64,000 nucleotides of DNA from Tridacna crocea. Taxonomy: Eukaryota > Mollusca > Bivalvia > Cardiida > Cardiidae. Position 1 is the first letter of the stretch, and every line of letters begins with the position of its first letter. A program made the translations under genes and the position numbers. The notes under the pieces were generated by a model that searched no databases, had not been told where the DNA came from, and was given only the letters and a program-made list of their open reading frames with translations. The stretch covers positions 43,682,728 to 43,746,727 of the forward strand of contig OX031069.1 in NCBI GenBank assembly GCA_943736015.1. The letters run 5' to 3'. This document shows, one piece after another, positions 7,301 to 42,500 of this stretch.

Positions 7301-10300
7301 TCATCTAAAACTAAAAAGTTTATATGAAAAACTTAGTCAGTATCCACTCATTACCAAACAAACAAGATTTTAGACTTGGCCTTAACTCTTTAGCAAATTA
7401 CATACTTTTAGACAAGTCCAAATTGGAAGCATTTTACAGACACCAAAATTAATGTGACTTTAAAAAAGATGAAAATTATTTTGAGAAGGGAAGAAAACAC
7501 TGTGGGAGAAGGAGAAAATACTGGTTACCAGCATTTTCTCCTTTTCCCACAATGTTTTCAGAAGGCTTCTTTCTCAGGGTTGTGAAAACCAGGGATTGTT
7601 TGGGAAAGGGTTGGAAGCATTTTCATTATATTCCTTTGTATTTTAGAAACCGTGGCTATGGGAAACAAAATACTGTTGGATAGGCTGGCCAAAACAGGTA
7701 CGTAGATTTTGTTCAAATGATTGCGATAGGTTGACATCTTGCCTTTGAGTAGGTCATAAGTCTTGGATCTATATTCATCAACTATTCTTAAAGTTGGGTA
7801 TTTAGATTTTTCACATCTCACCAAATTAGAAAATATATATACAGTTAAACCTGTGTTAGAGACTACCTGTATTAAGAGACCACTTGCTTTAAGAGACCAA
7901 CGTTCTGATACGACAACCCTTCTTACATTAACCTTATATAACCTGTGTTTAAAGACCACCTGCTGTAAGAGACCAATCTCAGTACTTCCCTTTACTGGTC
8001 TCTGAATACAGGTTGTAAAGAAGCCATTTGAAAACTTTTTGGGAAAAGGAGACAATGCTGGTTACCAGCATTTTCTCCTTTTCCCACAATGTTTTCCACC
8101 CTTCACAAAACAAATTTCAAATTTTCAGTCACTTTTAGTTTGTCATCTGCAAATGCTTTTAATTTGGACAAGCCTAAGATATTGTGGTTTGGTAATGAGT
8201 TAAAAGGCTACATAGCCTCTTAAGGTATTTTAGATTTTGCACCAGAAATAAAAAAAGACATTGTGGGAATGTCAAATGACTGGCATGTGACTAATGATGC
8301 TTAAGTTCCATAACATTGCAAATATGTAAATGTTTTACCTAATGTCTTATTTCGAAGCTGTTTGAAGCTTTGTCTGTGTATTTCCAGTATGTAAATGAGG
8401 GAGTGCTCATGTAAAAATAGACCATGTTTCCCATTGGTGTCAACCTGGGCCGTAATTAATTTCTAATTTCTCTTGTTGTCTGATGTATTTTTAACCACTG
8501 GGGTTTTATGAATGAAAATTAAATGCTTTGGGATAGGGATGATTTTTTGTATTTTTGTAAAATTTTTGTCCAAAAATCTGAAGGGCCACCTTTAAGAATG
8601 CTGTTTGTTCTGTTCTTCAAGATTTTCTAAATGTTCAAAGTAAGACACTTTCTGTTTGGCCAAACTAAATGTTTCAGCCATTCAGAAAGTGAAATATTTA
8701 GAAAATTCTGTAGAATAACATTCTTAACTCATTACCAAATGACAAAATTTTATACTAGACCAAATTGAAAGCATTTGCAGACAATGATTCAACTTTTGCT
8801 TAAAAGATGATTTCTGTCTATGATAGGGTAGAAAACATTGTGGGAAAAGGAGAAAATGCTGGTTACCAGCATTTTCTCCTTTTCCCACAACGTTCTCAAA
8901 AGGCTACTATTCCAGACCCGTAAAAACCAGGGATTGTTTGGGAAAGGGTTAACTCATTACCAAATGACAAAATTTTAAACTGGTCCAAATTGAAAGCACT
9001 TACAGATGACAGAATAAAGGTAAATCGAAAATTAAAACTTATTTCCAGCAGGGTAGAAAACCAGCATTTTCTTCTTTTCCAACAGTGTTTTCAAAAGGCT
9101 TATTTTCAATAAAAAATAGGGATTGTGTGGTAAAGAGTTACATGTACCTCATAATCTTGACTTTAACCCATTACCACACAATCCCTACTTTTGACGCCCC
9201 TGAGAAAGAAACCTTTAGAAAACATTGTGGGAAAAGGAGAAAATGCTGGTAACCAGCATTTTCTCCTTTTCCCACAATGTTTTCTACCCTTCCCAGAACA
9301 AATTTCTTTTTTTTAGTCACATTTATTTTGTCGTCTGCAAGTGCTTTCAATTTGGACCAGTCTAAAATCTTGTCGTGTGGTAAAGAGTTAAATGGCCTTG
9401 AAGAAGAAGCCTTCAGGAAACATTTTTGGAAAAGAAGAAAATGGTGATAATCAAAACAAACAACAACATTTTAAACTATTCCAAATTGAAAGCACTTGCA
9501 GACGACAGGATGAAGGTAACTCAAAAATTAAAATTTGTTTCCAAATGTCATTTGAACTAATGTGGTCCTCTTGTTTCTTTTATTTCTTTCAGCAATATAT
9601 TGATAATGATGTGTACTGGTACTACATTATAGAACTTGCATTTTACTGGAGTTTAGTATTCACAGTTTTTACAGATCATAAAAGAAAGGTAAAATGTTAT
9701 CATGAAAATGGTTCCCGAAGGCATCTTTCACTATGCTTGTTTAAAAATATTTTATGGAGGTCTTATCAATATCGCAGTTTTGTCAAGGTGACATTTCTCA
9801 TGTTTTACATAAATTGGTATCAGCAACACTTGGCTTGGGCCTTGCAGTGCCAAGCCCAATGATATTCCACCCAGACAAAATGAATGCTTTTAACTCTATA
9901 CCACACAATTCCAACTTCTAACGACCCTGAGAAAGATGCCTATCGAAAACATTGTGATCGGTCAAGAAACATGGCTCTGGTGAATGGGGTTTACTTGCAC
10001 TATACGGACATGAAGAAATTCTTGAAAATTCTTCTTCTCTGAAATGGCTGGTCAGATTTTTGAAATAATTTCACAGCAATGTTCCTTGAATGACTCTTTT
10101 AAATAACTGCTGGCGAAATTTTGATCCATCAAGAAACATGGCTCTGGTGAATGAGGGCTAGATGCACCATATGGAAATTAAGAAGTTCTTAAAGATTCTT
10201 CTTTTCTGAAACTGATGGTCAGATTTTGAAATGACTTTTACAGGACTGACCTTTTGAAAACTGCTTTGCAAAATAGTATTTTTGTTTCCAATGTTGCAAT

Positions 10301-13300
10301 TCCTCTAAAAAAAATAGGCTATGGTCCTCTCAAAAATTCAGGTGAGCAATCCAGGGCCATCTTGGCCCCCTTGTTAAAAGACTGTTAAGCATTAAAGCAC
10401 CTTTCACAGCAATAGTTTGCTTTGCCACTAGAGTAGACCAAGATCAGACTACAGAAAATGTGTGTTCTGACCATTGATCTACATTTTGAATTGTATCATC
10501 TAACTTTAGTTTTCAAAATTTTATTTCATTCTGCTCGCTTATTTTTTTATCGGATTCTGCCTTCTTATTATACGCCCCTCAATGTAGTGGAAGGGGGTAT
10601 ACTGGAATTGCCATGGCTGTCTGTCTGTTCGTTTGTACATCTGTCTGTCTGTCCATCTGTCCATAGACACAAATTTGTCCAGAGCAATACTCCTACAGTT
10701 TCACATACTGAACTCAAATTTACACACAGGCTTCCCATATATATGAAGTTGTGCATGTGCAATTTTCATGACCCTGCTGTGATTTGTTATGGAATTATCT
10801 CCCCCTGAACTTTTTCTACTGTATTATTGTACAAAACCATACTGTATTCTGTGACAAAGACCTGTTTTTGTGACAAGGAGCTGGTGGGGGTATAATCACG
10901 TTTATTGAAAGCTCTAGTTTTATTTCCGTTTTCAAACTTTGTTACCTTATTTTTGGTACTAAACATCATAATACCTTATTCTTGTTTTCAAACTTATAGG
11001 ATTTTACAGAAATGATTGTTCATCATGTTGCAACAATACTCCTTATGTATTTTTCCTGGATGTGTAACTTTGTACGAGTGGGTACGCTAGTTCTGTTGGT
11101 GCATGATGCCTCAGATCCCTGGCTAGCTGTAAGTATCAATACCCTCAGAGACCACCTGTGTTCAGAGACCACTCAGGGAAAATTCTACAATTCATTGTTA
11201 ACACTACTTTCGGCAATGTGTCAGTCATATAATCTGTTGTGAACACTGCTTATGGCATTGTGTTGGTCATATTTTGCCGTAAACACTAATTTTGGCAATG
11301 TGTCAGTCATATAATCTGTTGTGAACACTGCTTATGGCATTGTGTTGGTCATATTTTGCCGTAAACACTAATTTTGGCAATGTGTCAGTGGTAATATTAT
11401 AACTTGTTCTCAACGCTGCTTTTAACAATTCGTTAGGCATATAATTTTTCTAAACACTGCTGTGTCAGTCATACAATTTTTTCTTAACACTGCTTTTAAC
11501 AATGTGTCAGTCATATAATTTGTTGTTAACACTGCTTTTAACTCTTTCCCAAACAAGCCCTTGTTCTTATGTGTCTGCAGTCCAAGTCTTATGAAAACAC
11601 TGTGGGAAAGGGAGAAATTGCTCGTAACGAGCAATTTCTCTTTTTCCCACAGAGTTTTCTACTCATTTGGAGAATTTTCTGCCATTTTTATCAAATTTGA
11701 AATTGTCGTCTGCAACCTCTTTGAGTTTGGAAGAGTCTAAAATTTGTCGTTTGGGAAAGGGTTAATGATGTGCCACTAATACAATTTGTTGCAAACCCTG
11801 CTTGTTACTGTATGTCAGTCATATAATTTGAAGATCTCATTGATTTAAGTCTTTTACCAGTACTATTTTGTTGTTCAGTCCTCAGTAACTTGTAGGGGAT
11901 TACTCGATCCTACTAATACAAAGTTTTGTAATCTATGCAAAACTGATTAGCAACAATATCAAATCTCACATATCTGTATCAGACAATTCCATATTTTGTT
12001 GGACCTAGAAGAGAGAGATGACGAAAACTTAGTGTGGGACCACGAGAAAATTCTGGTCTCCAATTTGCACGGTTTTCTACAAGTGCAGAAGCCAGTCTTT
12101 CATACAATTTCTTTTTTTCTGAGATTTTCAACTCACCTGAGCACAATTAAAGAGCTCAGGGTGGGCTTTTGTGATCATGCTATGTCCATTGTGCATATTG
12201 TAAACGCATCAGCATTTACCTTGTTTACTCTATAGAGGCCACATTTTCAATCCAACACTCAACAAACTTGATCAGAATGATTGTCTTGATGCCTTGATAA
12301 AATCTTTGATAGAGTTGAAATTGGATCATGATGGTTCAAAGAGTAGGCCACTAGGTTAAATCGAAGAAAAACTTGTGTACACTCCTGAGCCCACATTCTC
12401 GGCCTGGTTCTCATGAAACTTGGAATGTTTGTCTTGGTGATATCTTAGGCAAGTTCAAAATAGGGTCACATGGGGTCAAAATATAGGTCATTGGGCCAGA
12501 TTTAAAAAAAACTTTATGTGACCACATTTTCAGCCTGATACTCATGAAACTCAAGATAACTCAGATTGTTTGTCTTAATGATATCTAGGAAAACTTTGAA
12601 AATGAATGATGCTGAGTCAAAAAGTAGCTACTGGGACAAATCTTAGAAAACTTTGTTTGCACCAAGGATGTCACATTTTCATTCCAGTACTCATGAAGAC
12701 GAGTCAGAATGTTTGTCTTGATAGTGTATCTCATGATATCTTGGACAAGTTTGAAATTTGGTCACACTTGGTAAAAAAGTAGCGCAGTTACACTCTTTTG
12801 TCTTACTGAAGATAAAACAGGATCTCTTCAGTGTTATTGACCATGATTTTACTCAGGTGAGCACTCTAGGGCCAATGGCTCTCTTGTTTTAACTCATTAC
12901 CAAACAACAGAATTTTAGACTGGTTCAAATTGAAAGCATTTGCAGATGACAAAAAATTAAAGGTGACTGAAAATTTGAAATTTGTTCTGGGAAGGGTAGA
13001 AAACACTGAGGGAAAAGGAGAAAATGCTGGTTACCAGCATTTTCTCCTTTTCCCACAATGTTTTCAAAAGGCTTCTTTCTCAGGGGCATCAAAAGTAAGC
13101 ATTGTGTGGTAATGGGTTAAGATGTGTTTTCTGTTGATGCGTGGGTCCTTTACAAAACATTCCTTTATTATTTTGAACAGGAACAAGAACAAGCTTTTAA
13201 GAAGTATTGTCGAGGAAAGAGATAAATACTGTTCTTATACTTAAAAAGAGTACTTTCTTCTTTGTCATCTTGAAAAGGGTTAAGTTACATTATTTTATTG

Positions 13301-19671: not shown

Positions 19672-19912
19672 TTATTTCCGTATATCTATCGTCGCTACCA
19701 GTTGCCTATCTGAGCGGTGCCCCCAGAAGATGGTTAGCTGTTACAGGGGATGATGCAAGGATACGGGTCGAAACTACTGAGAGGTTCGCCTGGTTCTTTA
19801 ACGTGCTTGGCATATAGCACCGTCACACGGGACCTCGGTTTAATGTCTCATTCGAAGGCCTATTAGTAATTTTAGTTGGCCAGCCGGAGATTCAAATTCA
19901 CAACCTGTGACA
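19672..19912 (-). mobile_element. Second SINE copy of the same family
   Basis: Matches 1790-2000: TATCTATCGTCGCTACCAG, the TGGTTCTTTAACGTGC core and GGGACCTCGG. The tRNA-like head is truncated at 19912, where a family P fragment begins. Confidence 0.7.
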
Positions 19913-22671: not shown

Positions 22672-23857
22672 TAACCCATAACCACACAATCCCTCCTTTT
22701 GAAGACCCTGAGAAAGAAGCCTATAGAAAACAATGTTGAAAAAGGAGAAAATGCTGGTAACCAACATTTTAAGCTCTACTGGCTGAAAGCCAGCAGAGCT
22801 TATGTCATGTCGTGGTTTCCGTCGTCCATCTGTCTGTCCATCCGTTAGTCTTTTTCTTGTTTACGCGATAGTCTTCATTTCTGGTCAGATTTTCGTGAAA
22901 CTGACACAGTTTGTTTATCTCATCAATAGCTTTAACCCTACTGATTTTGAAAAAAAAACAACTGACAAACAGTATGAGAAAAGTAGCCATTTCAAGTTTA
23001 AAATTTCCATTTCTTGTTTAGGCGATAAAGTCTGTATCTTTGGTCAGATTTCCATGAAACTTGCAGAGTTTGTTTATCTTATCAATAGCTTCAACCCTAT
23101 TGATTTTGAAAAAAATCCAACAAACAGTATGAGGAAAGTAGGCATTTCAAGTTGAAAACTTTCATTTCTTGTTTACATGATTAAGTCTGTAGTTATGGTC
23201 AGATTTACATGAAACTTGCAGAGTTTATTTATCTTAACAATAGCTTTAACCCTTTTGATTTTGAAAAAAATCTGACAAACAGTATGGGAAAAGTAGCCAT
23301 TTCAAGTTAAAAACTTTCATTTCTTGTTTACGCGATTTAGTCTTCATTTTTGGTCAGATTTCCGTGAAACTTACACAGTTTGTTTCTCTCATCAATAGCT
23401 TTAACCCTATTGATTTTGAAAAAAATCCGACAAACGGTATGGGAAAAGTAGCCATTTCAAATTGAACAATTTCAAATATTGCCTGTTTACATGATAAAGT
23501 ATTTATTTATGATCAGATTTTTATGAATTTTTCAGCTTGTTTATCCCATCAATAGCTTTTTAACCCTTTTGAGTTTGAAAAAATTCAACAAACAGTAATG
23601 CAAAAGTAGCAATTTTGACTTGAAAATGTCAATTTTTTTGTCTTTTTGCTTAATGAATTCCTATGTATGCTTTATTTAAAAGCAAACTCTCTGCCAGTAG
23701 CACATATTCAGGTCCTTCAGGGCCTTCTAGTTTTCTTTTTCCCACAATGTTTTCTACTCTTCACAAGGCAAATTTCAAATTTTCAGTCATTTTTATCATC
23801 TGCAAATGCTTTCGATATGGACAAGCCTAAAATATTGTTGTTTGGTAATGGGTAAAT
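22672..23857 (-). mobile_element. Family P MITE split by a tandem-core element
   Basis: Left part 22672-22772 stops at ACCAACATTTT; the right part resumes at 23730 (TTTTCTTTTTCCCACAATG) and ends GGTAATGGGTAA at 23857. It is itself inserted in the TTGAGATAAGATTTTATT palindrome. Confidence 0.75.
22773..23729 (+). mobile_element. Tandem-core (pearl/HINE-like) element inserted in a MITE
   Basis: Starts with a hairpin (GCTCTACTGGCT / AGCCAGCAGAGC), has about five diverged 155-159 bp units marked by GGTCAGATT (22883, 23042, 23197, 23352, 23511), and ends with a short hairpin GGTCCTTCAGGGCC then TTCTAG. TTTT lies at both junctions. The interrupted MITE resumes at 23730. Structure fits pearl elements of bivalves / Helentron-derived repeats (inference). 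Confidence 0.6.
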
Positions 23858-24471: not shown

Positions 24472-24593
24472 CACCACACAATCCCAAGTTCAATGACCCT
24501 AAGGTATAACCCTTTTGAAAAAATTGTGGGAAAAGGAGATAACCATCATTTTCCCCTTTCCCCACAATATATTCTAACCTTTCAAAACACATC

Positions 24594-24595
24594 TT
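24594..24595. other. TRIM target-site duplication ATCT (left copy ends here)
   Basis: ATCT at 24591-24594 and 25123-25126; extendable to ATCTT if the LTR is taken one base shorter. Confidence 0.7.
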
Positions 24596-25122
24596 CTTAC
24601 GAACGAAGTCCGTAACAAAGAAACAAATGAATAAATGCATGGCAGAAATAAGGATCGGAGCGGGATTCGAACTCCGAACTCCCGGACGCAAAGCCAATAC
24701 CCTAACCACTGAGCCAAAGAGATATCTCCCTGACGCAGTAGCCAGGTATTGTATTTAAATCGGGAGTATGCCATGCAGGAAGGAGTGGTCTCCCGTAACA
24801 CACCCCTTCTTAAAGTCATCATTTATTGATGACTCAAAGCCTTATTAGGCAGGAAGTCCAATTTTGGACAACAAATGGGATTAATGGCTCAATGGCCAAT
24901 CCCGGACGAGCCCCCATCTTACGAACGAAGTCCGTAACAAAGAAACAAATGAATAAATGCATGGCAGAAATAAGGATCGGAGCGGGATTCGAACTCCGAA
25001 CTCCCGGACGCAAAGCCAATACCCTAACCACTGAGCCAAAGAGATATCTCCCTGACACAGTAGCCAGGTATTGTATTTAAATCGGGAGTATGCCATGCAG
25101 GAAGGAGTGGTCTCCCGTAACA
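24595..25122 (-). mobile_element. TRIM: miniature LTR retrotransposon with tRNA-like LTRs
   Basis: Two 206-bp direct repeats (24595-24800 and 24917-25122) differ at one base (CTGACGCAG versus CTGACACAG) and flank 116 bp. On the minus strand the LTR starts TGTTACGGGAG. Directly after the 5' LTR is TGGGGGCTCGTCCGGGAT (24899-24916 on the complement), a perfect 18-base match to the tRNA-Pro primer-binding site known from gammaretroviruses. A purine run AAGAAGGGG precedes the 3' LTR. ATCT flanks both sides (24591-24594, 25123-25126). There is no coding capacity, so it must depend on another element's proteins. It sits inside a family P MITE whose halves lie at 24472-24594 and 25123-25235. The near-identical LTRs imply recent insertion. 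Confidence 0.88.
24663..24717 (-). promoter_or_regulatory. tRNA-like Pol III box pair inside the TRIM LTR
   Basis: Minus strand: A-box-like TGGCTCAGTGG (24707-24717) and B-box-like AGTTCGAATCC (24663-24673) at tRNA-like spacing. The same pair is in the other LTR at 25029-25039 and 24985-24995. The acceptor stem does not pair, so this is not an intact tRNA gene. Confidence 0.75.
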
Positions 25123-25363
25123 ATCTTGTGATTTGAACCTGTTATTTCAGCTACATCTGATTTGTAATTGGCAAATGCTTTCAATCTGGACCATGAGACA
25201 GTTTTGTCATTTAGTAGAGGGTGAAATGTTAGCAAAGGTTTGAAGCACATATTTTCAGTAATGACAAAGATATTATATTTTTCTACACGAGAATAAAACA
25301 GGCACAGACAACTACAACAAGGCTATCACACAACTTAGATATTCTTCAAAAACAAGTAAGCCA

Positions 25364-27330: not shown

Positions 27331-27552
27331 TCAGTCTGCTGCCGACAGTGTTGTGTTGTCGTAAACTTTAACCACTTCCTCAATACTATACATTTTATCG
27401 TGCACAGCCTGACAAAAGTTTGCTTCCTCTTCCGTTTCCAGTTGTATATAACTGTGAGGTATTAATTCCACTTCCTGAGAGAAAACACTGAGTTCGAATG
27501 TGTCTTGAATTTCTTGACCTACTTGGTCCACCATGACTGGGTCACAATGAAA
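27331..27552 (-). CDS. TACO1: TACO1 coding exon 6 (C-terminus)
   Basis: 73 codons plus TGA: FHCDPVMVDQVGQEIQDTFE, then VELIPHSYIQLETEEEANF and IEEVVKVYDNTTLSAAD. Matches the last YebC subdomain (IP...V.L.......L...LE...DV..VY.N). The acceptor is TATGCAG. The intron side of this acceptor is duplicated about 220 bp away (see findings). Confidence 0.93.
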   Translation of the reverse strand, partial: FHCDPVMVDQVGQEIQDTFELSVFSQEVELIPHSYIQLETEEEANFCQAVHDKMYSIEEVVKVYDNTTLSAAD

Positions 27553-30500
27553 CTGCATAGAGAAACAACACTTCAGTGGATTAATTACTGGTTTTAAACC
27601 ATTACCACACAATCCTTACTTTTGACGACCCTGAGAAAGAAGCCTTTAGGAAACATTGAGGGAAAAGGAGAAAATGCTGGTAACCAGCATTTTCTCTGTT
27701 TTTCCCACAATGCTTTCTACCCTTCACAAAACAAAATTCAAATTTTTAGTCACTTTACATTGTTGTCTGCAAATGCATAGAGAAGCAGCACTTCAGTGGA
27801 TTAATTACTGGTTTAACCCATTACCACACAATCCCTACTTTTGACCACCCTGAGAAAGAAGCCTTTAGGAAACATTGAGGGAAAAGGAGAAAATGCTGGT
27901 AACCAGCATTTTCTCCTTTTCCCACAATGTTTTCTACCCTTCACAAAACAAAATTCAAATTTTAGTCACTTTTACATTGTCGTCTGCAAATGCTTTCAAT
28001 TCCGACAAACTTAAAATTTTGTTGTTTAGTAAAGACTTAACTCATTTGAAATTTGCTTTGTGGAGGATAGAAAACATTGTGGAAATAGGAGAAAATGCTG
28101 GTTACCAGCATTTTCTCCTTTTCCCACAATGTTTTCAAAAGGCTTCTTTTCCAGGAGCGTCAAAAGTAGGGATTGTGTGGTAATGGGTTAAAGGGTCAGG
28201 TTCAGTCTGACAGGCATTGGTATCAAAGTTTTTTGGCAAACATTGATAAAAACTCAACATAACCGAGTCATGTTCTGGCAAAAGGAGCCTTAACGTATCT
28301 CCATGATTCACAATACCGAGCAAGTCACCACACGATTATAAATCACAAAATCCATTTCGTCGAACAACAATCTGAATCATGCAGTAAACTGGTCCTTGGA
28401 CATCAGAGCTCTAGATAGAGGGAATGATTTTGTTTTCAAAATTGAAATGTTAATTAATGTCCACTAAACCCTATGTTGTGGGTACTCATTAGAATCGTCT
28501 CATCCAGACGATTCTAATGAGTACTCACAACACAGGGTTTGGAAGAGAAATAATGGCTTTAGAATACTATCACTCCCTCTAAACTGGAGCTCTGAACATG
28601 CAGAAAACTCACTGATGGCAAAAAGTTGGCCCAGGTTGGCCTGCGGGAACACTGAAGGCTGCCTTGTTCCATACTTTGTGCAGATGTATTTGGCACCCTT
28701 TTCATGCCTTGATACTTTGCTTCGCTAGCATAGAGACATTTGAAACAAGAAGACCACAATGGCCCTGGATCGCTCACATGAATTTTTGAGAGGACCATAG
28801 CCAATTTTTTTTTTCTTTTTTTTTGAGGTATTGAAACACTGGAAACAAAATTGTTATTTTGCCAACGAATTTTCAAAAGGTCACCTGTTTCTTAATTTCC
28901 GTACAGTGCAAGTAGCCCCAATTTCCCAGAGCCATGTTTCTTGACCTATCAAAAATTTCGCTAACATTTTTGAAAAGAGTCATTCAAGGAACATTTCTGT
29001 GAAATTGTTTTTAAATCTGACCAGCTGTTTCAGAAAAGAAGAATTTTCAAGAATTTCTTCATGTCCGTGTAGTGCAAGTAGCCCCCATTCACCAGAGCCA
29101 TGTTTCTTGACCTGTCAAAATTTTGTGAACGGTATTTGAAAAGAGTCATTCAAGGAACATTTCTACGAAATAATTTTAAAATCTGACCTGTAGTTTCAGA
29201 GAAGAAGAATTTTCAAGAATTTCTTCATGTGTGTATAGTTCAAGTAGCCCCCAATCACCAGAGCCATGTTTCTTGACGAATCAAAATTTGACGAACACTT
29301 TTTGAAAAAGGTCACCCATGGAACATCTCTGTGAAATTATTTCCAAATCTGATCTGCTGTTCCAGAGAAGAAGAATTTTCAAATTTTTTCATTTCACTAT
29401 AGTGCAAGTAGCCCCCATTCACCAGAGCCATGTTTCTTGACAGATCAAAATTTCATGAACAAAGTTTGAAAAGGGTCACCCAAGGAACATCTCTGTGAAA
29501 TTATTTCCAAATCTGACAGGTGGTTTCAGAGAAGAAGGATTTTTAAGAATTTCTTCATTTCTGTATAGTGCAAGTAGCCCCCATTCACCAGATCCATGTT
29601 TCCTGCTGAATCAAAATTTTGCGAACAAGTCTTGAAAAGGGTCACCCAAGAAACATATCTGTGAAATAATTTCAAAATCTGACCAGTGGTTTCAGAGAAG
29701 AAGACTTTTAAAGAATTTGCTAAAAAATTCTATTTGGTTGCCATGGCAACCAGAGTTTTTGACTGAATCAAATTCTGTGAACAATTTTTGAAGAGGACCT
29801 CCCAAAAAACATTCCAGCCAAGTTTGGTCCAAATTGGCCCAGCAGTTTAGGAGGAGTTGATGTTTAAAGAATTGTTGATGATGGACATCGGGTGATCCTA
29901 GAAGCTCCCCTTGAGCATGTTGTGCTCAGGTGAGCTAAAAAGGTGAAATTTTGACATTTGAACAGGATGGCTTAGTGATTTAAAACAGAGATATTGGGTT
30001 ATTTTTTCATAACTCCATGAAAATGAACAAACAAAAACCTCTTCTTCCTTAAAGGACAGCCGGCTTATTGTTACCATTCTTAGGTTACAGAGGTTACAAA
30101 AAGTTTCTAACAGAAAAAAATGTTATGCACAAATTAATTTTATGACTTTAAAATAAGAGGCAATGTCATTCAGTTTATTTGTTTGATAAAATGGATTTTA
30201 CAGATCCCTGATTATGTCTTGCTTGGTATAATTAGGAGCATTAACACTTCACCAAAAAAAAAACTTCAGACCTGTCCAAATTGAGAACATTTGCAGACAA
30301 CAAAATAAATATGACTGAAAAACTAAAATTTCTATTTGGAAGAGTAGAAAACATTGTGTGAAAAGGAGAAAATGCTGGTCACCAGCATCCTTTTCAAAAG
30401 GTTGTTTTGAAAAGCTTTCTTTCTCAGGGTCGTTAAAACTCAGGATTGAGTGGTAAAGAGTTACTTAAAACCCTTTTGTCAGAGCTTTGCACATATATTT

Positions 30501-33500
30501 TCCACTTCAGTTATTTGAAACAGATGAGAAATTCATTATAATTGCTGGTGAATAAAGGACGAAATAGCACCTGAAATTCTAAATGAAATTACCTTCAATA
30601 TATTTTCTACGCCTGGTACATGTGCATCATTCTTTGTAACTATCACATCTTCAGCCCCTGACTCGATCGCTATCTCAATATATTTGTCCATATTCGTTAC
30701 ATTCATGTCTTTGCTTACTGGTACTATTATGACACCTCTCTGATCAAACAATGTGTTCCATCTGTTTGTTTTTCCTCCTTTCAAACTGAATGCATGACAG
30801 GGACAAAAAAAAACATTAAAAAGGTCATTCTCTGTCAGAAGGAGGTTTAATGCATTAGCAAATAGTATCTTCCCATGTTAACCCATTACCACACAATCCC
30901 TACTTTTGACACCCCTGAGAAAGAAACCTTTTGAAAACACTGTGGGAAAAGGAGAAAATGCTGGTAACCAGCATTTTCTCCTTTTCCCACAGTGTTTTCT
31001 ACCCTTCCCAGAACAAATTTCAATTTTTCAGTCAATTTTATTTTGTCGTCTGCAAATGCTTTCAATTTGGACCAGGCTAAAATTTTCTTGAGTGGTAACG
31101 GGTTAACCTGCACAGTCCACATAGGCCGACATGCATCAAAATTTTTAAGTTTTCCACATGTCAAAGGAGCCATTTTACCTTAACCCTTTCCCAAACAATC
31201 CCTGGTTTTTACGGGTCTAGAATAGTAGCCTTTTGAAAACATTGTTGGAAAAGGAGAAAATGCTGGTAACCAGCATTTTCTCCTTTTCCCACAATGTTTT
31301 CTACCCTATCATAGACAGAAATCATCTTTTCAGCAAGAGTTGAATTGTCGTCTGCAAATGCTTTCAATTTGGTCTAGTCCGAAAGTTTGTCGTTTGGGAA
31401 AGGGTTAAAATGGTTTGGTAAAGGGTTAATAAAGCTGTTACTGAAAATGGAATAAAAACCTCTAGAATTAGTGCAGCACAAGTCTGATACTTTACCAAAT
31501 AATCCCATAGTCAATTCCGTGACAAAGATGTACATTGTAATTGGGACTCCTTTTCCTTTCACCATACTGTGCAAAATCTGCCAAATGCAGCAATTATTTG
31601 TCCCTCTGCAACAATGTTGAAGATAGCAGCTGATTTTGGCATCCAGAGCCCCTACGGCCTCTTCCTCTTATATCAAAACATAAAATCTTTTGCGATAAAC
31701 CACATAGCTTTTACAAACAAGTGGGCCAAGATGGCCATGGATTGCTCACCTGAAATTTTGAGAGGACCATAGCCTTTTTTTTTTTGAGGCATTGAAACAC
31801 TGGAAACAAAATCATTATTTTGCCAAGCAATTTTCAAAAGGTCACCTATAAAAGTAATTCCAAAATCTGACCAGCATTTTCAGAAAAGAAAAATTTGTAA
31901 GGGTTTCTTAATTTCTGTATGGTGCAAGTAGCCCTCATTCACCAGAGCTATGTTTCTGGACCTATAAAAATTTCCTGAACACTTTTTGAAAAGGGTCATT
32001 CAAAGAACATTTCTTTGAAATTATTTTAAAATCTGAACAGTTCTTTCAGAGAAGAAGAATTTTCAAGAATTTCTTCATGTCTGTATAGTGCAAGTAACCC
32101 CTATTCACCAGAGCTATGTTTCTTGACGGATCAAAATTTTGCCAACAACTTTTGGAAAGGGTTACCCAAGGAACATTGCTGTGAAATTATTTTAAAATCT
32201 GACCACGGATTTCAGAGAAGAAGAATTTTCAAGAATTTCTTCATTTCCATATAGTTCATTTAGCCCCAATGTACCAGAACCATCTTTCTTGACGAATCAA
32301 AATTTCACAAACAAGTCTTTAAAAGGGTCACCCAAAGAACATTCCTGTGGAATTATTTTAAAATCTGACCATCCATTCGAGAGACGAAGAATTTTTAACA
32401 ATTTCTTTATTTTCCTATAGTTCCCCCATTCACCAGAGCCATGTTTCTTGATGGATCAAAATTTCAAAAGCAAATTTTGAAAGGGGTCACACAAAGAACA
32501 TCCCTCTGAAATGATTTCAAAATCTGACAAGTGGTTTCTGAGAAGAAGAATTTTTAAGAATTTCTTTGTTTCTGTATGGTGCAAGTAGCCCCTATTCACC
32601 AGAGCCATGTTTCTTGACGGATCAAAATTTCACGAAAACTGTTTGAATAGGGTCATGCAAGGAACATATCTGTGAAATTATTTTAAAATCCCGCCAGCAG
32701 TTTCAGAGAAGAAGATTTTTAACTAATTCCATAGAGAATTCCATTTGGTTGCCATGGCAACCGGAATTTTAGACTGAATCAAATTTTGTGAACAAATTTT
32801 AAAGAGGACCTCCCAATGAACATTCCAGCCAACCAAATTGGCCTAGCGGTTTAGGAGGACTTTAAACAGGAGGGCCATTGGCCCTGGAACGCTCACCTTA
32901 GACTATAGCTTATGAGTGAAATTCAATTCTAAGAGCAACTTTGGTAGAGCTTCACCCAAGGAACATCCCTGCCAAGTTTCATCAAGATTGGCCCATTGGG
33001 TTAGGAGAAGAAGATGTTTAAAGAAATTGTTGACGGGCGACAGACGCCGGACATAGGGCAATCAAATATCAAAGCTCTACACCTTCCAGTTTCAAAGAAA
33101 AATTTTAAATTTTCCTTCTTTGTCCTATGTTCGAACTTGTGGTCCCCTGAGCTGGGTCAGTTTTAACCAAAGCAGCATCCTTGGAACAAACTTGGTAGAG
33201 GTCCACTAAAAGATGCTACATACCAAGTATCAAAGCTGTACACCTTCCCATTAAGACAAAAAGAAATTAAAAATTTTCCTTCTTTGTGTGACCTCTGGGT
33301 CATAGCCAGTTTTGACGCTAGGGACATCGTATGACCAAACTTGGTAGAGGTCCACCAGAAGATTCTGTATACCAAATAATTATCAAAGCTCTGCACCTTC
33401 AAGTTTTAGAGACGATTTCTGAAGTTTTCCTTTTTAGTTGCTATGTTTGAACCTGTGACCTCCCGGGGCAGGGCCACTTTTGACCCTAAGGGCATAATAT

Positions 33501-36500
33501 GAACAAACTTGGTAGAGATCCACCAGGAATTGCTACATGCCAAATATCATAGCTCTATGCCTTCTAGCTTTAGAGAAGAAAAATTTTGTAATTTTCTTTC
33601 TTTGTTCCTATGTTCAAACTTGTGACCCCCGGGGAGGGCCCCCCCCCCCCAGGGGTGGGGCCAGTTTTGACCCCAGGGACATAATTTGAACAAACTAGGT
33701 AGAGGTCCATTAGGAGATGCTATATACCAAATATCAAATCTTCTAGTTTGAGAGGAGAAGATTTTCAAAAATTTCCTTTTTTTTCTTTTTGTTGCCATGG
33801 CAACCAGAGTTATGGTCAGAATTAAATTCTTTGAACAAATTTGGTAGAGCTTCACCCAAGGAACATTCCTGCCAAGTTTCATGAAGACTGGTCCAGTGGT
33901 TTAGGAGGAGAAGATGTTTAAAGAAACTGTTGACTGACAACGGACGACGGACATAGGGCGATCACAATAGCTCACCTTTAGCAGTGAGCTAAAAGGTGAG
34001 CTAAAATTTGTTGAGGACTGATGACGCATGTTGGACATCAGGTGATCCTAAAAGCTCCCTTTGAGAATGTTGTGCTCTGGTGAGCTTAAAAAAATTCAAT
34101 GTTGCAAGATAATTACATTGGAGTGAATGAGACTAAGGACCCTAACTCTCATATTATAAGACAAAAGCTGCCAAGGTTGGCCAGAATGGCCTTTACCAAA
34201 ACGTTGATGTTACACAATATTTACAGACAAGTTAGGGCTGGTAGACCTTAACCCTTTACCTGATAAGCCAATTTGAGGCTCTTCCATTTCAGCAGCAAAT
34301 AAAGATACAATGTCAAAAATATGGCCAAATGTGGATGCAAATATCTGATTGAGTTGAAAACATTGTAGGAAAAGGAGAAATTGCTTGTTAGGAGCAATTT
34401 CTCCTTTTCCCACAATGTTTTCAAAAGCTGTCTGTTGTTGATACGTCAAAATGAGTATCTATGGAGTAAAGGGTTAAAGGACAAACGCTGCCATGGTTGG
34501 TCCAAATAGCCTTTATGAAAACGTTGATGTTACACAATATTTACAGAGTTAGGGCTGGTAGACCTTAACCCTTTCCCAAACAATCCCTGGTTTTTACGGG
34601 TCTGGAATAGTACCCTTTTGAAAACATTGTGGGAAAAGGAGAAATTGCTGGTAACCAGCATTTTCTCCTTTTCCCACAATGTTTTCTACCCTATCATAGA
34701 CAGAAATCATCTTTCCTGCAGGAGTTGAATTGTTGTCTGCAAATGCTTTCAATTGGGTCTAGTCCAAAAGTTTGTCGTTTGGGAAAGGGTTAAATGGCTA
34801 AAAAATATGAAAAAGTAACCTTACTTCACTTTCTTAGCTCTCTGGTTAATGAGGTTCCGCACTTCCACTGTGTCAAAGGCTATTTTCAATACAAAAACAA
34901 TACCTCTCGGTCCATGTAACTCCACAAATGAAGGACCTTTGCTTTTTGACTCCACCTGAAAAACAAGTTGAGGGGATACATTAAACCCTTTACCAAGCAA
35001 CAGGGTTTTAAACTAAAATTTAAACCCAAATTGAAAGCTGTTGCAGACGACAAAATACGTGTAAATGTAACTCAAAAATTGAAATTCGTTTCCAACAGGG
35101 TAGAAAACAATGTGGTAAAAGGAGAAAATGCTGGTCACCAGCCTTTTCTCCTTTTACCACATTGTTTTCAAAAGGCTTATATCTCAGGGTCATAAAAACC
35201 AGGGATTGTTTGGTAAAGGGTTAAAGAAACCATTTCAGGTCTATTCTTTACCCCCTCACACATTTCAAAGTTTCAATGACTCTCAGAGAGGGACTTTTTT
35301 AAAACACTGGGAGAAAAGGAGAAAATGCAGGTGACCAACATTCTCTTCTTTTCCCATATGTTTCAAGACTATCTGATACTGCAATTCCTATCATTTGCAT
35401 CATGTAATTTGTGATTTTTTTTTTTTTTGGAGGGGGGGGGGGGTGCTTTCAAACTGAACCCGTAAAAAATTTTGAGGTATGGTAATGTATTAGATAGCTC
35501 TTGACCAAGCAATAAAAATTTTGACTGGTCCTCGCAATTAACTCTTTAAGGAGCCATCACACCATGACGTTTTGGTCAAAGTTCAACGTTCAGGAAGTAT
35601 AGAAAACATTATAGAAAAAGGAGAAAATGCTGGTTTCCAGGATTTTTTTCTTTTTCCCACAATGTTTACAAAAGACTTCTTTCTCTGGGTCAATAGAACA
35701 GAGGGTTGCATGGTAGAAAAGGGAGAAAAAGCTGATTACCAGCATTCTCTCCTTTTTCCACAATGTTTTTCAAAGGCCTCTTCTTATGGATAATTAACCC
35801 CTTACCAAAAGACAAAATTTTAGCCATGTCTAAATTGAAAGCATTTGAAGACAAAAATTTCAGTGTAGCCAAAATGATACAATTTCCTTTGGATATGGGA
35901 GAAAACATTGAAGGATCAGGAGAAAATGCTGCTATTAACCCATTACCACATGAGAAAATTTTGGACTGGTCCAAAATGGCAGCATTTGCAGGCGACAAAA
36001 TAAAGGTGACTGAAAAATAGAAATTTGTTCTGGGAAGGGTAGAAAACACTGTGGACTGGTCCAAATTGGCAGCATTTGCAGACGACAAAATAAAGGTGAC
36101 TGAAAAATAGAAATTTGTTCTGGGAAGGTAGAAAACACTGTGGAAAAAGGAGAAAATGCTGGTTACCAGCATTTTCTCCTTTTCCCACAGTGTTTTCAAA
36201 AGGTTTCTTTCTCAGGGGCGTCAAAAGTAGGGATTGTGTGGTAATGGGTTAAAGGTTAAAACTGAGGGTCGTGTGGTAACAGTTTAAGTGGGATATAACA
36301 CAAAGGAAAGCTACTTACAAAGCTTTTGATCCAGCCCTGTATATAAGTCTTAGGTACATTAGCTGCAGTACACTCCTGAATAACCTTCTCCAAGTTTCTG
36401 TTTAGCTTAGGATCAGGCCCACCACCTATAATGACAAACAAGAATATGTGGATGCCAAGGCTTGGTTTGATTTTCAGTAAAACTTTAAAGGTGGGTATTT

Positions 36501-39500
36501 AGAATTTTTACATCTCACCAAATTAAAAAATATATATATCACTGAAATTCATATGAAAAAATAATACAAATAATCAACAATTAAGATTCATAAAATTACA
36601 CAAATTTTTTTTTTGATGGTGTTCCCTTAAAAGGCTACGTAGCCCTCTAACTCTTTTTCACATGAGAAAAATTTAGACTGGTCCGAATTGAAAGCATTTG
36701 CAGACCACAAAATAAAGGTGACTGAAAAATTGAAATTTGTTCTGGGAAGGGTAGAAAACACTGTGGGAAAAGGAGAAAATGCTGTTTACCAGCATTTTCT
36801 CCTTTTCCCACAGTGTTTTCAAAAGGCTTCTTTCTCATGGGCATCAAAAGTAGGGACTGTGTGGTAATGGGTTAAGGTATTTTTAGATTTTGCGCCAAAT
36901 ATCAATAAAGCATTTTGAGAATGTCAAGTTAAATTCCATTACATAACAAACATGTAATAATTATTTCCATAATGTCTTCTTTGGACGCTATGTTTGAAAC
37001 TTCGTCTGTGTATTCCTGTATGTAAATGAGCAAATCGATCATCTAAAAATAGAACATGTCTCCTGTTGGTGTCAACCTGGGCTGTAGTAAATCTCTAATT
37101 TCTCGTGTAGTCGGATGGTTTTCGACTATTTGGGTTTTATGAATGAAAATTAAAAGGCTTTAGGAGTATAGGGATGATTTTTTTTGCATTTTTGTAAAAT
37201 TTTCGTCCCAAAATTTAAAGGGCCACCTTTAACCCTTATCTGGCTAAATAACTAAAATGAAATTTTCGATTCAATAGTAAAACATCAAATATTCCCAAAC
37301 AAGCCCTGGTTTTTACATGTCTGCAGTACAAGACTTTAGAAAACACTGTGGGAAAAGTAGAAAATGCTCATAACAAGCCATTTCTCCTTTTCCAATAGTG
37401 TTTTCTAGCCTATCAGAAAACTTTCTGCCATTCTCATCCAATTAAAAATTGTTTTCTGCAAACACTTTGAGTTTGGCACGGTCTAAAATTAGTCATTTGG
37501 GAATGATTTTACTCTTTACCAAACGACAAAATTTTAGACTAGTCTAAAATGAAAGCCTTTGCAGACGATAAAATAAATGGGACTTAAAAAATTAAATTTG
37601 TTTTAGGAAGGGAAAAAAACATAGTGGGAAATGGAGAAAATGCTGGTCACCAGCATTTTCTCCTTTTCCCTCTATGTTTTCAAAAGGCTTCTTTCACTGG
37701 GGTGTTAAAAGTCGGGACTGTGTGGAAAAGGATTAAGACACATTGTAGATCAAAGATCTGTGCAGTCTGATCTTGATCTACACTGCCCAAAGAAGATCAG
37801 TAAATCTCAGTTAACAGTCTATGGATAACAGTAAAAAAAGAGGCAACATTGCCAAAAAGACTCGGATAGCTACCTGCCTTTGTTTTATTGGTTTCCCCTT
37901 GTGTTGGTGAACAACTTGTTTATCTAAATTTAACCCTTTACCGCACATTGACGACTTTTAACGACCCTAAGGAAGGAGCCTTTTGAAAACATTATGGGAA
38001 AAGGAGAAAATACTGGCAACCAGCATTTTCTCCTTTTTCCAGAATGTTTTCTACCCCATCCAAGCAAAATTGCACCATTTGAGCCACTTTGAAATTGGCG
38101 TCTGCAAATGCTTTCAATTTGGATAGGTCTAAAATTTTGCTGTGTGATAACAGGTTAAAGCAAATATCTTCAGTAATGACGGAGATATTTTGAAATATTT
38201 ACATTTCGAAAACTCATACATTGTATATGTCAAAGTTTCTGCACAACGACACAGACAACCGTGCAGACATCAACCCAGAGCTATGACAAAACCTCAACGA
38301 TATCCGTAAAAACAAATGCCGCACTAAAACTTGAATAAGTGGTTACCATGTGTAGTTTCCATGCATTTTCCAAAGAGTTTCTTAGCCCTCTTGGCACTAA
38401 ATCTGTATTAACACTTTACCAAACATCAAAATTGTACACCAGTCCAAATTGAAAGCATTTGCAGATGACAAATGAAGTATGGCCCAAAAATTTAATTTTT
38501 TTGAGGGGGAAGGGCAGAAAACATTGTGGGAAAAGGAGAAAATGCTGGAACCAGCATTTTCTCCTTTTCCTACAATGTTTTCAATAGGCTTCTTTGTCAG
38601 GGTAGTTTAGTTTAGTCGTATGTATTCTACATCGATTGAGAAGCAAGTTCTTACAACTTATACTGTGAAAACATCAAAGAACAAGAGCGGCAAATTGTCG
38701 CAAGATACGCCCGTCTTACCCCAAGTTGTAAAGGTGGGGCATGCACCGGACAAAATTCAAGTATGAAAAACAACAAAGGGCAATAACTCAAAAATAAAGC
38801 AAGCAAAAGTTGTGATTCCTGTGCACTGCACTCCCCATGGATGAGATCTATCCACCCATGAAATTTCATAACCCTAGCTACTATAGTTTTGGAGATATGC
38901 TCCGGACAAAAATCAAGTATGAAAAACGACAAAGGGCAATAACTCAAAAATTAAGCAAGCAAGAGTTATGATTCTTATGCACTGCACACACCCTCGGTAA
39001 GATCTATCCAGCCATGAAATTTCATAACCCTAGCTAGTATAGTTTTGGAGATATGCTCCGGACATAATTCAAGTATGAAAAACAACAATGGGCAATAACT
39101 CAAAAATAAGCGAGCAAGAGTTATGATTCCTGTGCACTGCACTCTCCCTTGATGAGATCTATCCACCCATAAAATTTCATAACCCTAGCTAGTATAGTTT
39201 TGGAGATATGCTCCGGACAAAATTCAAGTATGAAAAACGACAAAGGGCAATAACTCAAAAATTAAGCAAGCAAGAGTTATGATTCCTGTGCACTGCACTC
39301 CCCCTCGGTGAAATCTATCCACCCATGAAATTTCATAACCCTAGCTACTATAGTTTTGAAGATATGCTCCGGACAAAATTCAAGTATGAAAAAAAACAAA
39401 GGACAATAACTCAAAAATTAAGCAAGCAAGAGTTATGATTCTTGTGCACTGCACTCCCCGTCAATGAGATCTATCCACCCATGAAATTTCATAACCCTAG

Positions 39501-42500
39501 CTAGTATTATTTTGGAGATATGCTCCGGACAAAATTCAAGTATGAAAAACAACAAAGGGCAATAACTCAAAAATTAAGCTAGCAAGAGTTATGATTCTTG
39601 TGCACTGCACTGCCCGTCAATGAGATCTTTCCACCCATGAAAATTCATAACCCTAGCTAGTATAGTTTTGGAGATATGCTCCGGACAAAATTCAAGTATG
39701 AAAAACAACAAAAGGCAATAACTCAAAAATTAAGCGAGCAAGAGTTATGATTCTTGTGCACTGCACTCCCCCTTGATGAGATCTATCCACCCATGAAATT
39801 TCATAACCCTAGCTAGTATAGTTTTGGAGATATGCTCCGGACAAAATTCAAGTATGAAAAACAACAAAGGGCAATAACTCAAAAATTAAGCCAACAAGAG
39901 TTATGATTCTTGTGCACTGCACTCCCCCTCGATGAGATGTTTCCACCCATGAAATTTCATAACCCTAGCTAGTATAGTTTTGGAGATATGCTCCGGACAA
40001 AATTCAAGTATGGAAAACGACAAAGGGCAATAACTCAAAAATTAAGCAAGCAAGAGTTATGATTCCTGCGCACTGCACTCCCCCTCAATGAGATCTATCC
40101 ACCCATGAAATTTCATAACCCTAGCTAGTATAGTTTTGGAGATATGCTCCGGACAAAGAACTGGACGCCGCCCGCCCGCCCGGACGCCCGCCCGCCACGG
40201 GTGATCCCATAATACGTCCCGTCTTCGACGGGCGTATAAAAAGGAGAACTATCATTTTGTCCTTTTCTCACAATGTTTTCTACCCTTCCAAAACCAAGTT
40301 TTAAATTCTGATGGACATCAATTATGTCCTCTGCAAATGCTCTCATTTTAATTAAGTCTACAACTTTGTCATCTGGTTAAGAGATAAAGAAAAAGAATTA
40401 CGAAGTTACTATTCACATAGGTCCAGATAGAGGTAATGACATTGATTTAAAAATTTGAAATAAAAATTATTCCCTTTTAAAACCTATGCTGTGGATACTC
40501 ATTAGAATCATCTCATACAAACAATTCTAATGGGTACCAACAACATAGAGTTTTAAAGAGAAGTAATGACTTCAGAATACCATCACTCCCTATTATCCAA
40601 AGTTCAGTATTCACTATGTGTAGATTTCAAACATTCTACAAAAAGTACCTTGGCCATTACGGTGCTATTTTTGGATTTAACTGCTTATGCAGAAAGAGTA
40701 GATCAAGATCAGACTGCAAACAACATGTATTTGATCTTGAATCTATTCTGTTGCTTCTTTTCTAGTTACTCTGTAGACAAAAAGAATCTAAAACTTGGTG
40801 TCCATATTTTTTCAAAAAGCTATCCTTGCCCTTGTAGCATTACCAAATGACAAAATTTTAGGCTTGCCCAAACTGAAAGCATTTGCAGACAACAAAACAA
40901 AAGTGACTGAAAATTTGAAATTTGTTTTGTGAAGAAAACATTGTGGGAAAAGGTAAAAAAAGCTGGTTGTGCAGTCTGATCTTGATTTACACTGTCAATA
41001 AAAGATCATTGAGTTACACTGAGCAGCCGAAGGGTTCATACTTAATAACATACTTCTACAGGCTTCTCTCATTTTGACATAGAGTGGAGCTCTTAGTGCT
41101 GCTCTTTCCGCACTTTTCTCTTTCTTGATATGTGCAACATTCTGCCAGTGTGCGTGACCTACAAAATATAAAAAGGTCAATGAAAGGTCAAGTCATCAAA
41201 TGTACCTCTAAAAAAAGTGACATCAATTAACCTTTAGAAAATGACCTTTAATTATCACAATGCTACAGGAACAGTCTTTTGAAGGCATTATGGGGGAAAA
41301 GGGAAAAAAATCTGTCAACTGCCAAAGACTATCTTAAAAAATGTTGAGGGAAAATGAGCATGATCTTGTACCATGCAGATGCCTTTTATCCAACAAATCG
41401 GTCTCTTCTACCAGGTGTCTCTGTCTGCAATGATTTTTTAATGTCTTAACTCTTTACCACATAATCTCTACTTTTGATGCCCCTGAAAAAGAAGCCTTTA
41501 GAAAACATTGTAAAAAAAAAGGAAAATGCTGGAAACCAGCATTTTCTCCTTTTCCCATAATGTTTTCTACCCTTCACAAAACAAATTCCAAATTTTCAGT
41601 CACTTTTATTTTATTTTTATTGTCTGCAAAATTAATGCTTTCCATTTGGACAAACCTAAAATAGTGCTGTTTGGTAATGAGTTAAAATCTTTACCACAGG
41701 TCAAAATTACTGACAGATCCAAGTAGGAAGCACTTCTAAAGGACATAGTAAATGTGGCAGTGGTAATGGGATTTGTCCATGAAAGAAATTAAAACAGTGT
41801 GGGAAAAGAAGAAAATGCTGGTTAAAATTACCTGTGTTTAGGGCTCCCCAACCCCATCTACAATATGGAGTGCAACACGCGAAAAGGTGCATTCGGACAT
41901 TTGCGTAAAGTGTCCTCCCGGAGTAGCCTGCGCAGGCTAATCCGAGACGACACTTTACGACTACATTAGATGTTCTGCTACAGTAAACTTGCGTAAAACA
42001 GAAAATCACATAAAATCGGAAAGTGTCGTTTCGGATTATCCTGTGCGGACTGCGCAGGCGGATCCGAGACGACACTTTACTCAAATGTCCGAATGACCCT
42101 TTTCGCATGTTGCAGGCCATATGCTATCAACTAGAGCTCAGATACAAGGGCTGATTTTGATTTCAAACTTAAAAATATTAATTATATTATTCTGCACCAA
42201 ACCCTATGTTATGGGTACTCATTAGAATCACCTCATCAACCAAAAAGTAGGAAAAAATGATAGTAACCAGCACCTTTACTTTGTTTACTTTGTTATCTGC
42301 ATATATTTTTTATTTGAACTAGGTCACCATTTTATCATTTGGTAAAAAGGTTATCATTAATTTTATTATATCTGTTCAACATTTGAATTATCATATGCAA
42401 GGACTTAACCCTTTACTCCATAGATACTCATTTCTACACATTGCTTGTAGGAACCTTTGGAAAACATTGTGTCAAAAGGTGAAATTGCTCGTGACGAGCA

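Follow-up and report, generated by a model that had tools for sequence, protein, structure and literature searches.

A young family of Helenus-like TRIM elements with a tRNA-like module in their LTRs in Tridacna crocea

Described relatives and anatomy of the element

TRIMs, which are non-autonomous LTR retrotransposons, include a kind that carries tRNA-derived sequence in its LTRs and occurs in fungi, animals and plants, described under the name Helenus (Kojima 2024, PMC10886601). According to that account, Helenus is placed in the proposed TRIMp3 group, for which transcription by Pol III is a criterion, and comprises 51 families in pteriomorph bivalves; a primer region in common with an autonomous Gypsy element is a further trait, its animal members generate 4-bp duplications, tRNA-Pro is among the primers in bivalves, and the box B sequence GGTTC is conserved in most families (PMC10886601). 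Cassandra of plants is likewise a TRIM with a small-RNA promoter in its LTR and with tandem arrays, but this LTR is derived from 5S rRNA and contains terminators (PMC7215508). Ajax, an animal TRIM whose LTR also derives from a small RNA, differs in being 5S-derived and in its 5-bp duplications and tRNA-Leu primer, and is described from two nemertean genomes (PMC10886601). For bivalves, the biv-TRIM elements have terminal repeats of 202-218 bp and occur in solo and tandem forms; the main text of that report makes no mention of a Pol III module (Satovic 2019, PMC6934838). Bivalve transposons are also the subject of a further paper (PMC10294476).

Within the window, by which we mean the whole 64-kb stretch of DNA that was analysed, a 528-bp element lies on the minus strand and consists of two LTRs and an interior (Table 1). 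We are highly confident that it is a TRIM of the Helenus kind, a placement made by published description. Like Helenus as described, it has two LTRs and stays below 1000 bp in length, carries tRNA-derived LTR sequence with a box A containing TRGCY and YGG (here TGGCTCAGTGG), has a primer site adjoining the LTR as well as a purine tract, produces a 4-bp duplication (exact in 35/38 two-LTR copies, see below), and contains no functional tRNA as a rule (here ARAGORN and Rfam were negative); tandem arrays, described for one zebrafish family, were found here at two loci (PMC10886601). It differs in box B, which reads AGTTC in the young family as opposed to the usual GGTTC, a form retained by many older sister copies. 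The main text of Kojima refers neither to a TATA box nor to a hairpin (PMC10886601), two kinds of feature that we describe below. A sequence-only reading of this DNA had proposed an animal analogue of Cassandra, namely a TRIM whose LTR contains a Pol III-like module of tRNA origin, and the many paired-LTR copies with 4-bp duplications bear this out. The novelty that it implied does not stand, since Helenus had already been published (PMC10886601), and the element appears to represent, in well-preserved form, a kind in print since 2024.

Table 1. Positions of the element, its parts and the older sister LTR in the window.
Feature	Positions	Strand	Basis
Whole TRIM element, 528 bp	24595..25122	-	paired LTRs with primer site and purine tract, duplicated 4-bp target; full-length copies elsewhere
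5' LTR, 206 bp	24917..25122	-	LTR comparison
3' LTR, 206 bp	24595..24800	-	one base off 5' LTR
Interior, 116 bp, no gap after 5' LTR	24801..24916	-	sequence reading
Primer-binding site TGGGGGCTCGTCCGGGAT, 18 nt, interior start	24899..24916	-	same in 42/42 interiors
Purine tract AAGAAGGGGTG, adjoins 3' LTR, interior end	24801..24811	-	sequence reading
Target-site duplication ATCT	24591..24594	.	flank of element
Target-site duplication ATCT	25123..25126	.	flank of element
A box TGGCTCAGTGG, 5' LTR	25028..25038	-	motif, LTR position 85
B box AGTTCGAATCC, 5' LTR	24985..24995	-	motif, LTR position 128
A box TGGCTCAGTGG, 3' LTR	24706..24716	-	motif, LTR position 85
B box AGTTCGAATCC, 3' LTR	24663..24673	-	motif, LTR position 128
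TATA-like TTTAAATAC, 5' LTR	25073..25081	-	LTR position 42, 43 nt upstream of A box
TATA-like TTTAAATAC, 3' LTR	24751..24759	-	LTR position 42
Interior hairpin GTCATCA-ATAAA-TGATGAC, before purine tract	24815..24833	-	motif; recurs in 4/19 older loci
Older degenerate sister LTR, split by SINE	1634..~2100	-	sequence comparison

The anatomy given in the same reading was recovered in its details. The two LTRs, said to be one base apart, are identical at 205 of 206 positions, and their termini form an imperfect inverted repeat (TGTTACGG versus TCTTACGA). The primer site assigned to tRNA-Pro directly follows the LTR; TGGGGGCTCGTCCGGGAT is presumably the complement of the tRNA-Pro 3' end. The purine tract and the flanking ATCT duplication are likewise present, and besides its hairpin the interior contains GTCCAAAATTGGAC, a second small palindrome. 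The A- and B-box-like motifs reported for each LTR are present and exceed chance expectation: with a degenerate pattern for an A-plus-B pair 30-70 nt apart, only these two LTRs were found within the 64-kb window, and 60 dinucleotide-preserving shuffles of the window yielded a mean of 0.017 pairs (maximum 1).

The LTR module is not recognisable as a tRNA gene. ARAGORN predicted no tRNA gene in the 64-kb window, and Rfam returned zero gathering-level matches in the window and no 5S; when positions 24595-25122 were searched at E<=10, the sole output was a pair of matches, both at chance level, to a frameshift element that is unrelated. The tRNA model that the sequence-only reading had suggested running on the LTR thus gave a negative outcome, and a working tRNA gene is rejected. 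The 5S or Cassandra type is rejected as well, given the lack of a 5S match in Rfam; in place of a 5S-derived LTR with terminators, the element has a tRNA-like module and no TTTT. We also weighed whether the element is biv-TRIM and not Helenus, as the terminal repeats of biv-TRIM (202-218 bp) are about as long as those found here and both form tandem arrays. However, biv-TRIM is described with an interior of 77-80 bp, no identifiable primer site and the purine tract GGGGAGA in most copies, as compared to 116 bp, an 18-nt site and AAGAAGGGG here; set apart in this way by description only, it is a highly improbable identity, which we rejected (PMC6934838).

Other sequences share the window with the element. 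A MITE-like palindrome is very abundant (e.g. 1485-1527, 6548-6590 and 9230-9272): a 43-base probe gave 169 BLAST rows in the window, counting both orientations and partial matches, and a peptide from one MITE-like copy had 5442 relatives. Satellite-like tandem arrays occupy 38741-40157, 61280-62392, 28888-29718, 31862-32722 and 22853-23626, with units of ~156, 156, 166, 166 and 155 bp, respectively. Probable host exons encode a TLC domain (11000-11239, plus strand, E 1e-13) and TACO1/YebC domains (27334-27615, 30539-30877 and 36259-36498, minus strand, the last under the Pfam cut-off).

Copies in the host assembly and in other contigs

We searched the host assembly (1.049 Gb, 31 contigs) with the whole 528-bp element and scored the best 40 of 749 candidates. 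All 41 matches listed, including the window, span positions 1-528 at 99-100% identity, in a sample that represents the best-scoring end of the family and was obtained with a query favouring full copies. The 40 other matches fall into 39 retrieved loci, giving 40 loci together with the window. Among the matches listed, 38 of these 40 loci contain two LTRs in a constant 528-bp unit, and the remaining two, L028 and L029, are tandems of the form LTR-interior-LTR-interior-LTR; L028 extends past the retrieved stretch, while the outer ends of L029 carry GCAT on both sides. Exact 4-bp duplications flank 35 of the 38 two-LTR copies (window included, among the matches listed), the exceptions being L015 with one mismatch and L024 and L044 with non-matching ends. 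The two LTRs are identical in 21 of the 38 copies, differ at one base in 13 and at two bases in 4, and the upstream 20-mers of all 38 are distinct. Many full and young copies therefore exist, and they constitute a recently mobile TRIM family. The host-genome search for paired LTRs and 4-bp duplications that had been proposed from the sequence was thus positive.

Within the duplicated bases (n=38), A is foremost at the first position (24/38) and T at the last (19/38), and outside the duplication T prevails three bases to the left (23/38) and A three bases to the right (19/38). These raw base counts suggest a target preference in the form of a weak palindrome, which would fit an integrase. Across the 81 young LTRs, the A box is found in 79, the B box in 79 and TTTAAATAC in 80, and variable sites number 2/11 in the A box, 2/12 in the B box and 30/206 in the whole LTR; the boxes of young copies are thus roughly as variable as the remaining sequence, a point against Pol III.

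A SINE is a single unit lacking LTRs and a primer site, and its duplications are usually longer than 4 bp. Instead of an LTR element, the unit could in principle be two tRNA-derived SINEs that came together by accident or in tandem, given the tRNA-like boxes with tRNA spacing, the tandem forms L028 and L029, and the finding that 15/19 older copies (see below) have no primer-site-like stretch after the LTR, although a 3' LTR would also lack one. The primer site, the purine tract, the 4-bp duplications and the constant 528-bp unit argue against this reading; contradicted by the full-length two-LTR copies, it was rejected, and we consider its probability negligible. The related question of whether most genomic copies are single SINEs without paired LTRs is answered in part, for the best 40 of 749 candidates and with a 528-bp query biased towards full copies: at 38/40 loci the copies have two LTRs with a primer site.

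Relatives of the element were also detected in other contigs. An 82-aa open frame spans the LTR, and when this reading frame was used as query, 9 predicted peptides were obtained from ENA contigs; a profile built from them retrieved 169 related peptides, of which 120 were listed, in a sample biased to open frames and shared 5-residue words. All 120 listed peptides match the element DNA, with best frames +1, +2, +3 and -1 in 43, 47, 29 and 1 cases. Since the relatives match all three sense frames, the likeness resides at the level of DNA and not of protein; a conserved protein is rejected, and the earlier statement that the 116-bp interior leaves no coding room is true in effect, despite the 82-aa frame. 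The transition from LTR end through primer site to interior is contained in 57 of the 120 listed peptides and that from interior to the next LTR in 59, so that at least one junction type occurs in 84, both in 32 and neither in 36. An A-box peptide signature is present in 57/120 (2.3 in shuffles) and a B-box signature in 90/120 (20.0 in shuffles), the two lie 8-20 codons apart in 40/120 (shuffle mean 0.08), and 37 of 45 such A-B signature pairs are at a distance of 15 codons. The exact primer-site signature appears in 19/120 listed peptides and in none of one shuffle. In viral contigs, the LTR-end pattern had 0 matches; profile A1 yielded 15 pattern stretches in viral contigs and 17 in genome contigs, with 0 confirmed in either.

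An older sister family

The window additionally contains a degenerate sister LTR (Table 1) that is interrupted by a tRNA-type SINE of 304 bp (1763-2066) with a 12-bp duplication (1751-1762 and 2067-2078). With a SINE nested in the sister LTR, this arrangement is a snapshot of how such elements have been proposed to originate, by insertion of a SINE into an LTR. The SINE sits between the TATA-like box and the A box in the same sense; at 23.8 bits, its tRNA part stays under the gathering score of 29, and a second partial copy of it is located at 19672-19908. With the 3' part of the sister LTR as query, 41 matches were scored (best 40 of 882 candidates), the LTR itself at 100% and the others at 74-91%. 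We retrieved 20 sister loci (L048-L067), and all of them except the copy in the window entered the alignment (19 loci).

By strict motifs, the 19 older copies include 13 with GTTC[AG]AATC, mostly preceded so as to read GGTTC, 7 with the A box and 7 with the TATA-like box. Both the TATA-like and the A box were scored in 5/19, 43 nt apart in 4 and 45 nt apart in 1. In the 5 copies in which both A and B boxes were scored, they are 62, 64, 30, 62 and 51 nt apart, and the spacing is thus inconstant in the older copies. A primer-site-like stretch follows the LTR in 4/19 copies as judged by eye (L050, L060, L063 and L066); because a 3' LTR would have no primer site after it, at least this many copies derive from elements that were once full. 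The interior hairpin was recovered by motif at L049, L058, L060 and L063, and at L050 and L066 the stretch is present but altered. In several older copies, a TCTTTTAAACC-like segment looks like an anticodon loop with TTT; the legend of figure 2 in Kojima 2024 aligns molluscan Helenus with tRNA-Lys-TTT (PMC10886601).

We used the alignment to compare conservation along the LTR, with five copies that lack the 5' part (L052, L053, L061, L062 and L065) excluded from the 5' statistics. Conservation amounts to 0.88 for the A box, 0.93 for the B box and 0.81 for the TATA-like box, against an LTR mean of 0.83, in an alignment whose query, the 3' part of the LTR, favours that side. Among 191 windows of 11 columns, the B box ranks 21st, the A box 79th and the TATA-like box 123rd, and the most conserved window starts at position 162, ~24 nt past box B. 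A faster decay of the A and B boxes than of the remaining LTR, raised beforehand as a possible outcome, was not observed, as both exceed the mean. Still, they are not the most conserved parts of the LTR, which counts against Pol III.

Transcription and proposed life cycle

The evidence on transcription is mixed, and we regard use of the element by Pol III as somewhat probable, judging from its sequence. In favour of Pol III, besides the A and B boxes, LTR and interior together contain no TTTT, against a mean of 3.26 in 2000 shuffles, 0.7% of which have none; the LTR alone has none either (as in 2.8% of shuffles), and TTTT is absent from all 81 young LTRs and 42 interiors, which are not independent copies. 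In two-LTR copies, TTTT is first met in the 3' flank, at a median distance of 51 nt, and it occurs within 300 nt in 35/38. Against Pol III, TTTT is present within the final 140 nt of the LTR in 9/19 older copies (9/14 of those with the 5' part).

The TATA-like box would leave open a role for Pol II. According to this alternative, the same TRIM is now transcribed by Pol II from the TATA-like box, and the tRNA-like module is merely left over from the insertion of a SINE or tRNA. Consistent with it, TTTAAATAC, positioned 43 nt upstream of the A box, is present in 80/81 young LTRs, this spacing is nearly kept in the older copies in which both boxes were scored, several older copies have TTTT inside the module, and the A and B boxes are not preferentially conserved. 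On the other hand, the LTR lacks all four poly(A) signal variants looked for, and the sole AATAAA is an interior one, lying before the 3' LTR; both boxes are retained in 79/81 young LTRs, and the TATA-like stretch is no better conserved than the LTR mean in older copies. We consider Pol II transcription a credible but rather doubtful alternative. TATA, A and B elements are used together by Pol III in yeast SNR6. A composite promoter is conceivable though unlikely, in which the TATA-like box ~43 nt upstream of the A box would set one start usable by Pol III or Pol II, the same repeated RNA end would be kept under both, and the interior hairpins would serve a Gypsy partner as signals for packaging or dimer formation.

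Under the favoured Pol III reading, the RNA would start shortly upstream of the A box in the 5' LTR from the tRNA-like promoter. Because the element has no TTTT, the transcript would read through the interior and the 3' LTR and stop at the first T-run, usually in flanking DNA. As in established LTR-retrotransposon biology, a tRNA, here tRNA-Pro, would prime reverse transcription of the element's RNA, the second strand would initiate at the purine tract, and the DNA would be inserted by an integrase supplied in trans. Since the 3' LTR repeats the start region, the jump of the first strand to this LTR would still be possible. A putative Gypsy-type element sharing the primer is the probable source of the enzymes.

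Elements of the Helenus kind can inflate tRNA gene predictions. Being young, present in many copies and contained in an assembly of chromosome scale, the family described here would be a suitable system for asking whether Pol III really transcribes tRNA-like LTRs, a question left by Kojima 2024 (PMC10886601), and likewise for how a terminator-less LTR transcript gets reverse transcribed.
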